DNA from: Methanoplanus sp. FWC-SCC4
Lineage (GTDB): Archaea > Halobacteriota > Methanomicrobia > Methanomicrobiales > Methanomicrobiaceae
Length of the DNA stretch: 64,000 bases
Direction of reading: 5' to 3'
NCBI RefSeq assembly: GCF_032878975.1
Contig: NZ_CP043875.1
Coordinates: 984,370-1,048,369, forward strand
Part shown: positions 2,416 to 3,868 of the stretch, one piece after another
Position numbering within the stretch: position 1 is the first letter of the stretch
Layout of the letters: every line of letters starts with the position of its first letter
Translations under genes and position numbers: made by a program
The notes under the pieces: model-generated
Seen by the model: only the letters and a program-made list of their open reading frames with translations
What the model was told of the DNA's origin: nothing
Database searches by the model: none

Positions 2416-3663
2416 TTAACAGAGATCTCCGGATATTATTTTTTCAGTATTTGTATTTTTTATAAGATTGCAGATATCCCTGATATTTATTGGTTTATAT
2501 CCGGTTAATTCGCAGCTTACATTTATTGTCTTTCGATTTTTTTCTATGAAGGGATATTCATATAGTCTGCTGTTGTGAGTGTGTCCGTGTATAGCCCATG
2601 AATTATTGTTTTCCGGTATTTTTTTTGGATCATGAACTACAAAAAAATTGAAATCTTTGTAAGAAAAGGTGTATGAATCCAGTCCGTTTTCCAAACAGTG
2701 ATCGTGATTTCCTTTTACAAAAATTATGTTGCCGTTTAATTTTGCAAGATATTCATGTACCTCAGAGTATGACGAATTGTAAGAGAGATCGCCGGCAAAA
2801 ATTACCGTGTCTTCTGGTTTTACGGTATTATTCCAGTTTTCAATTAAAATTTTGTTCATCTCTTTGGTATTTTCAAAAGGTCTTGCAGTGTTTTTAATGA
2901 TTTCACTATGACCTAAATGCAAATCACTGATTAAAAATATCTCTTTTTCATCATCGAATTGTGAAGCATTTATTTCGTAATTTTTAATAAGTCTATAATT
3001 TTCCAGAGTTTTTTTCCAGGTATTTTTGCTCTGCAAAGTGATCCATTTTTTTGAGGGAAGATCAAATTCCCTGTATAATTTTCCGTCTTTTTTGATGGTT
3101 ATTCTCATGATGTCAACCGGCAGATAAAGTGCCCTGAAAGAATGTTTTGGTGACGGAGTGTTTTTGTAAAATGTTTTTTGAAGAAACCTGGAGATTATTC
3201 CGCATTTTTCGCCAATTGCTTCTTTAATTTTTTGCATTTCAATATTTGTTATGTCATCGGTAACAGGTATTTCAAATGTGTTATTCCGGGGTTTAATCTT
3301 GATAGATGATATTTCGTTTGTTAATTTCTCGTACCAGATTTCCAGGTTTTCTGCCGGTTCCACTCCGAATGACAAAGAGAATTTTTTATTATTTTGTGAT
3401 TTTTCCCACCCACTGACAAGACATGTCAGATAATCATAATTAAGACTGGCCAGTTCTGTTGCTTTTAGAATATTTTCAATTTCTTCTTTGTCGTTTGCAA
3501 TTGCAGTAATTATCTTTATTTCAGGATTTTCAACAACCTTTTTGTAAGGTATCGCTGACTGGACCTCCTGAATTCTGTCTGCAATTTTTTGTGATGAGGC
3601 AGAAAGATTTAATGAAATTTCTATTCTGGACGTCAAGTGATCAATATCTCCCGAAACTTTCAA
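2416..3663 (-). CDS. Calcineurin-like metallophosphoesterase with an N-terminal 2H-phosphoesterase-like domain
   Basis: A 415-residue two-domain protein. The C-terminal half carries the full metallophosphoesterase metal site: DLHLGH (247-252), GDLS (291-294), GNHDH (318-322) and HGHTH (359-363). The N-terminal ~150 residues look like the fold of 2'-5' RNA ligase/2H phosphoesterases (ISLNLSA strand, IIT at 51-53, FSLSFGVEP at 95-103), but the two catalytic HxT motifs are not recognisable, so this is inference. A linker with REFDLPSKKWIT joins them. The listed start is TTG and overlaps the upstream RHH gene by 23 bases; TTG at 3636 is an alternative that removes the overlap. The substrate is unknown. 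Confidence 0.8.
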   Translation of the reverse strand: MKVSGDIDHLTSRIEISLNLSASSQKIADRIQEVQSAIPYKKVVENPEIKIITAIANDKEEIENILKATELASLNYDYLTCLVSGWEKSQNNKKFSLSFGVEPAENLEIWYEKLTNEISSIKIKPRNNTFEIPVTDDITNIEMQKIKEAIGEKCGIISRFLQKTFYKNTPSPKHSFRALYLPVDIMRITIKKDGKLYREFDLPSKKWITLQSKNTWKKTLENYRLIKNYEINASQFDDEKEIFLISDLHLGHSEIIKNTARPFENTKEMNKILIENWNNTVKPEDTVIFAGDLSYNSSYSEVHEYLAKLNGNIIFVKGNHDHCLENGLDSYTFSYKDFNFFVVHDPKKIPENNNSWAIHGHTHNSRLYEYPFIEKNRKTINVSCELTGYKPINIRDICNLIKNTNTEKIISGDLC

Positions 3664-3820
3664 GTTCTTCTCTTATTACCATCCTGACATCTTCAATCTC
3701 AATTCCTTTTTTTTGTTTTTGAAGAAGTTTTTCCATGGTCCTTATCCCCTCACTTATTGTATTGCCGTATTTTAAAGTAATTTCAACCGCATCTTCCTGT
3801 ATTCTTGTTACTTTCGACAT
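3641..3820 (-). CDS. Small ribbon-helix-helix-like DNA-binding protein (59 aa)
   Basis: A 59-residue ORF starting MSKVTRIQEDAVEITL and containing KYGNTISEGIRTMEKLL, the pattern of a ribbon-helix-helix (CopG/antitoxin type) regulator: a short beta strand, then an NTISEGIR helix. It ends in a charged helix (EDVRMVIREELESFGRY). Two copies of a 15-bp palindrome lie immediately upstream and flank its probable TATA box, which strongly suggests autoregulation. No Shine-Dalgarno sequence is visible and the predicted transcription start is within a few bases of the ATG, so the mRNA may be leaderless. It runs into the downstream phosphoesterase gene, an arrangement like toxin-antitoxin operons. Family call is by pattern only. 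Confidence 0.72.
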   Translation of the reverse strand: MSKVTRIQEDAVEITLKYGNTISEGIRTMEKLLQKQKKGIEIEDVRMVIREELESFGRY

Positions 3821-3822
3821 CT

Positions 3823-3837
3823 GTTACAAAATGTAAC
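3823..3837. promoter_or_regulatory. Operator palindrome 1 (GTTACAAAATGTAAC)
   Basis: Near-perfect 15-bp palindrome with GTTAC/GTAAC arms, 2 bases upstream of the RHH gene ATG. It overlaps the predicted transcription start. A second copy with the same arms begins exactly 31 bp away, close to three DNA turns, so both would face the same side of the helix. Confidence 0.75.
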
Positions 3838-3840
3838 TAG

Positions 3841-3850
3841 AAATTATTTA
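3841..3850 (-). promoter_or_regulatory. TATA-box region of the RHH-phosphoesterase operon
   Basis: On the minus strand the sequence between the two palindromes reads TAAATAATTT. It lies about 25 bases before the ATG at 3820, the usual archaeal TATA spacing for a leaderless start. Protein bound at either palindrome would block TBP/TFB or RNA polymerase. Confidence 0.6.
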
Positions 3851-3853
3851 TGC

Positions 3854-3868
3854 GTTACTAAATGTAAC
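3854..3868. promoter_or_regulatory. Operator palindrome 2 (GTTACTAAATGTAAC)
   Basis: Second copy of the palindrome, differing from the first at one central base. It lies on the upstream side of the TATA box, where TFB would bind. The repeated arms and 31-bp spacing make a chance origin unlikely. Confidence 0.75.

Follow-up and report, generated by a model that had tools for sequence, protein, structure and literature searches.

Is a small gene for a ribbon-helix-helix (RHH)-like protein, lying between two palindromes and a phosphoesterase gene, one half of a toxin–antitoxin module, or the regulator of an operon of another kind? The question is raised by a locus of Methanoplanus sp. FWC-SCC4, within a 64,000-nt stretch of its genome that was analysed as a whole (hereafter the window), for which the original prediction had proposed a possible toxin–antitoxin-like module.

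Layout of the locus

The features under discussion are the following, with positions in the window and the evidence in brackets.

2416..3636, minus strand: phosphoesterase gene, 406 aa from the likelier start, a TTG at 3636 (ORF and homologue starts)
2554..2940, minus strand: metallophosphoesterase domain, its metal-site motifs DLHLGH, GDL, GNHD, HDP and HGHTHN all intact (PF00149; invariant columns)
3064..3627, approximate limits, minus strand: N-terminal 2H-derived domain of the phosphoesterase, both HxT motifs lost (alignment with intact 2H homologues; PF13563 in relatives)
3641..3820, minus strand: 59-aa RHH-like DNA-binding protein, presumed autorepressor (ORF, orthologues, AF2 model, weak RHH_1 matches)
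3648..3652, minus strand: GGGAG, putatively Shine–Dalgarno-like, within the final codons of the RHH gene (sequence)
3823..3837, no strand: putative operator pair O1, GTTAC-N5-GTAAC, GTTACAAAATGTAAC (sequence; position kept in relatives)
3841..3851, minus strand: TATA-like box ATAAATAATTT between O1 and O2, predicted from archaeal promoter layout (sequence)
3854..3868, no strand: putative operator pair O2, GTTAC-N5-GTAAC, GTTACTAAATGTAAC (sequence and conservation)

The two 15-bp palindromes are placed around the TATA-like box as the original prediction had described them: O1 is separated from the start codon of the RHH gene by 2 bp on its upstream side, O2 lies just upstream of the box at the BRE position, and the two are 31 bp apart, start to start. 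A sigma-70 promoter scan was uninformative, the host being an archaeon. The small gene does precede the phosphoesterase, and the suggested overlap of the two is doubtful. The phosphoesterase ORF (2416–3663, minus strand) is readable from a TTG at 3663, which would give 415 aa; however, the TTG at 3636 falls 4 nt past the RHH stop codon and most adjacent homologues begin 2–14 nt past it, so that tight coupling without overlap is more likely.

Scanning the window for the palindrome pattern with at most one mismatch returned five matches against 0.75 ± 0.82 in shuffled sequence, the only exact ones being those at 3823–3837 and 3854–3868; O1 and O2 thus exceed chance. Elsewhere in the 2.31-Mb genome, beyond the RHH promoter, GTWAC-N5-GTWAC occurs only three times within a provirus-like element and as a single sequence, GTTACCGAAAGTAAC, in four copies. 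Two of these copies were checked and sit in the 16S–23S spacer of rRNA operons, and the sequence was for that reason rejected as an operator. Because the genome-wide number of such pairs in this genome is not above the backwards control, we claim no wider regulon.

The provirus-like element (C1:1758177-1776158; L041–L042) carries a tyrosine integrase and a HerA/FtsK-like ATPase and has one end at a tRNA-Leu. Its three GTTACANNNTGTAAC sites are the sole exact copies in the genome besides 3823–3837. Sites of the GTTACANNNTGTAAC type are also carried by an element of G011 (L153) whose ATPase is related, and by provirus-like regions of G062 (L141) and G089 (L142).

The 59-aa protein

The 59-aa protein has no significant match in Pfam, NCBIfam or PADLOC, and the Pfam model RHH_1 matches only three of 53 orthologues, weakly (best E = 0.015). 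The AF2 model built from 53 sequences (pLDDT 83.6) has an extended segment at residues 1–8 followed by helices at 9–16, 22–37 and 42–57; it supersedes an earlier model from 11 sequences, in which the N-terminus was all-helical (pLDDT 73). The best Foldseek match of the model is NikR, an RHH protein, at a non-significant E of 6.5. The weak RHH_1 matches, the modelled extended N-terminus with three helices and the non-significant NikR match together make an RHH fold likely, if unproven. The RHH-like label of the original prediction is accordingly plausible but weak by sequence, the window protein itself being without a Pfam RHH match.

The gene is present in 76 of 232 genomes of the order Methanomicrobiales, in the families f1 (that of the window), f3, f4 and f6, and a search of 393 sampled genomes of the phylum gave no match beyond the order. 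It is single-copy, the exceptions being two fragmented genomes with two matches each. The RHH tree follows the families, and the partner label changes three times along it, as far as an alignment of few columns that leaves many forks unresolved allows. A search of a viral collection found no relative of the protein, and a viral origin was rejected on that ground. The 59-aa proteins appear, by sequence, to be a previously unnamed, Methanomicrobiales-restricted family of RHH-like regulators of known kind.

Putative operator arrays across the order

Upstream of the orthologues the two sites of the window recur as an array of GTWAC pentamer pairs, 10 bp apart within the pair and repeated every 31–32 bp, in two or three pairs. 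In 54 RHH promoters a 160-bp stretch contains 4.7 GTWAC on average, whereas the control windows taken from these loci average 0.10. The distances between pentamers peak at 10–11, 31–32, 41–42, 62–64 and 73 bp, which places the sites on one face of the helix, and since the pentamer is variable at its central base, a pair may read as inverted or as direct. Most members of family f4 have an 11-bp step. Across several genera the positions of O1 and O2 relative to the TATA box and the start codon are kept, and three genomes of genus g3 carry a second array between the same divergent genes. The palindromes were originally tied to autoregulation; this strong phylogenetic footprint, with conserved arrays before RHH orthologues, agrees with that proposal, under which the RHH protein would bind them.

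The two-pair pattern was found in 38 of the 232 genomes of the order, 37 of which have the RHH gene, and not once in the backwards control; a few of the matches lie away from the RHH gene. The genome without an RHH match, G112, is incomplete and has two arrays, one at the apparent RHH locus (L145:2494-2540). Some orthologues have no array at the RHH promoter, namely those of genus g6 and of the Methanomicrobium MAGs G024 and G026 (Methanomicrobium is part of g8, in f1). In four of five genomes of Methanogenium (g5, likewise in f1) the array is missing from the RHH promoter and stands instead at −59 to −10 of the phosphoesterase start; no other observation speaks as strongly for the phosphoesterase being a genuine target.

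Distribution of the two genes

Within f1 the link between the two genes is real: both are present in 24 genomes, adjacent in 19 of these, and both are absent from four (G003, G010, G019, G021), although these four include incomplete assemblies, in which one gap can remove adjacent genes. Outside f1 the two hardly co-occur. Families f2 and f5 have the phosphoesterase and no RHH gene; in f3 and f4 the RHH gene is present and a phosphoesterase is hardly ever found. In f6, which includes Methanocorpusculum, the RHH gene precedes an Asn-synthase-family gene (itself present in 56 of 60 relatives), mostly without a phosphoesterase. The operators are kept in f3, f4 and f6 alike. The phosphoesterase itself was found in 44 of 100 relatives.

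These patterns decide against a toxin–antitoxin module, in which an RHH antitoxin would neutralise a toxic phosphoesterase and repress the pair. Gene order, a small RHH-like first gene, twin operators and probable translational coupling are all as such a module would have them. Nevertheless, the obligate, co-conserved pair of a type II system is not what is seen, for whole families hold either gene without the other, and in f6 the partner is the Asn-synthase-family gene. The patchy, horizontally moved distribution that is usual for, if not strictly defining of, type II systems is also missing: the RHH gene is restricted to one order, near-always single-copy and vertically inherited on the chromosome. 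The C-terminal helix of the RHH protein, which toxin binding would need, is conserved also where the phosphoesterase is absent, and PADLOC leaves the RHH protein unmatched and recognises the enzyme only as a generic phosphoesterase. We therefore reject the module on its distribution and regard it as highly improbable. The original prediction had let the module claim fall if the phosphoesterase usually occurred without the small gene, or if the palindromes were not conserved. The palindromes are conserved and the pair is genuine in f1, but it does not hold in the other families, and in 25 of the 44 phosphoesterase-bearing genomes no small gene is adjacent, f2 and f5 having none at all.

The phosphoesterase

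The description of the enzyme as a two-domain phosphoesterase was correct. Pfam Metallophos (PF00149) matches residues 242–364 (E = 3e-11), and the D-x-H, GD, GNHD, H and GHxH motifs of calcineurin-like metallophosphoesterases are all present. The N-terminal half of the protein can be aligned to the 2H domain that f2 and f5 homologues carry, and four homologues, three from f5 and one from genus g7, match Pfam 2_5_RNA_ligase2 (PF13563), two of the four scoring above the curated threshold. Neither of the two HxT/S motifs by which a 2H domain is recognised survives in the window protein or in the f1 homologues of the alignment, other residues standing in their place, whereas most f2 and f5 homologues keep both intact. 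These relatives are thus fusions of a 2H phosphoesterase to a calcineurin-like metallophosphoesterase with both domains preserved, from which the window's family differs in having lost both motifs of the 2H domain. A sequence search for solved structures of the phosphoesterase domain returned only one, Aquifex aq_1665 (PDB 1xm7; 195 residues, entitled 'hypothetical protein'), which covers the phosphoesterase part alone. We take the protein to be, probably, an ordinary cellular metal-dependent enzyme with a degenerate 2H domain, not a toxin, which perhaps acts on nucleotide or RNA ends.

In genus g9 a gene for a family-B DNA polymerase lies directly upstream of the phosphoesterase (L091:3717-5690), and g7 has similar sequence upstream. 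A link to the published PolB2 operon was considered and set aside: that operon contains iRadA and PPB2 (PMC11791011), and a word search of the paper found mention of neither an RHH protein nor a phosphoesterase.

A probable autoregulated operon and its rivals

The reading we prefer, with a probability of about 0.72, is that of an autoregulated operon, in which an RHH-like repressor acts on phased GTWAC sites and the phosphoesterase is a co-translated enzyme. The 59-aa protein, probably as dimers, would bind the same-face pentamers. With O2 over the BRE side of the TATA box and O1 over the start region, a bound repressor would keep out TBP/TFB or RNA polymerase. The level of the operon would then be set by the repressor's own concentration, concentration-sensing autorepression being the simplest reading, and the phosphoesterase would be translated by coupling from the shared mRNA. 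Comparative sequence analysis establishes the conservation of the operators, the co-occurrence in f1, the changes of partner and the relocation of the operator in Methanogenium; that the RHH protein is what binds the GTWAC sites, and that repression is the effect, we infer, as we do the chemistry of the enzyme. Across the lineages the best reading is of a repressor that keeps its operator while its operon partner differs.

The arrays might instead be bound by a different regulator, the 59-aa protein having another role, and their persistence in G112, where no RHH gene was found, would fit this. We think it unlikely, because array and RHH gene occur together almost without exception in the order and the array usually stands directly before that gene. 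It is similarly improbable that the protein mainly organises or partitions the chromosome, at dif/xerA arrays in some genera and in proviruses, with the operon an incidental context. Methanogenium and g6 do carry GTWAC pairs upstream of xerA, mostly 118–250 bp apart (L239, L240, L251, L255, L258, L259), in g6 as one pair per unit of a 215–235-bp tandem repeat; the only two pairs in the genome of G023 sit upstream of xerA, and related proviruses carry scattered pairs. Yet among 27 genomes searched such xerA-upstream sites occur only in g5 and g6, and not in the window's genome, no ParA/ParM-like partner was seen beside the RHH gene, and the widespread feature is the 31-bp promoter array. A combined version, in which the protein would be a host nucleoid or terminus protein, MatP-like at dif-proximal arrays in some genera, autoregulating through phased promoter arrays and with resident proviruses in several genera making use of its sites, we consider very unlikely. 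Just upstream of xerA there is also an inverted repeat, TTTTGCG...CGCAAAA (L272:1957-1986, with similar sites at other loci), a candidate dif site.

Comparison with known systems

If autoregulation is correct, the family would give the methanogens of this order a regulator of their own, with an operator code (GTWAC pairs spaced by 10 and 31 bp) that is unusually easy to read and from which its promoter targets can be predicted in each genome, and an example of a regulator that retains its operator despite a change of operon partner. It also carries a caution, in that an RHH gene, an enzyme and palindromes do not make a toxin–antitoxin module without a test of co-conservation.

Among known systems, RelB of Escherichia coli, acting at relO, is the antitoxin to the toxin RelE, whereas in the present family the partner varies or is missing and the operator pairs are spaced by 31 bp. 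SvtR, an RHH protein of an archaeal virus, represses its own promoter, apparently in competition with TBP/TFB; the binding of RHH dimers to several sites is cooperative, and E73 has a third helix (reviewed in PMC5569661). SvtR, AvtR and E73 are small RHH proteins, as the 59-aa protein likely is, but they are viral and have other recognition sequences, whereas the gene described here is a vertically inherited gene of the host.
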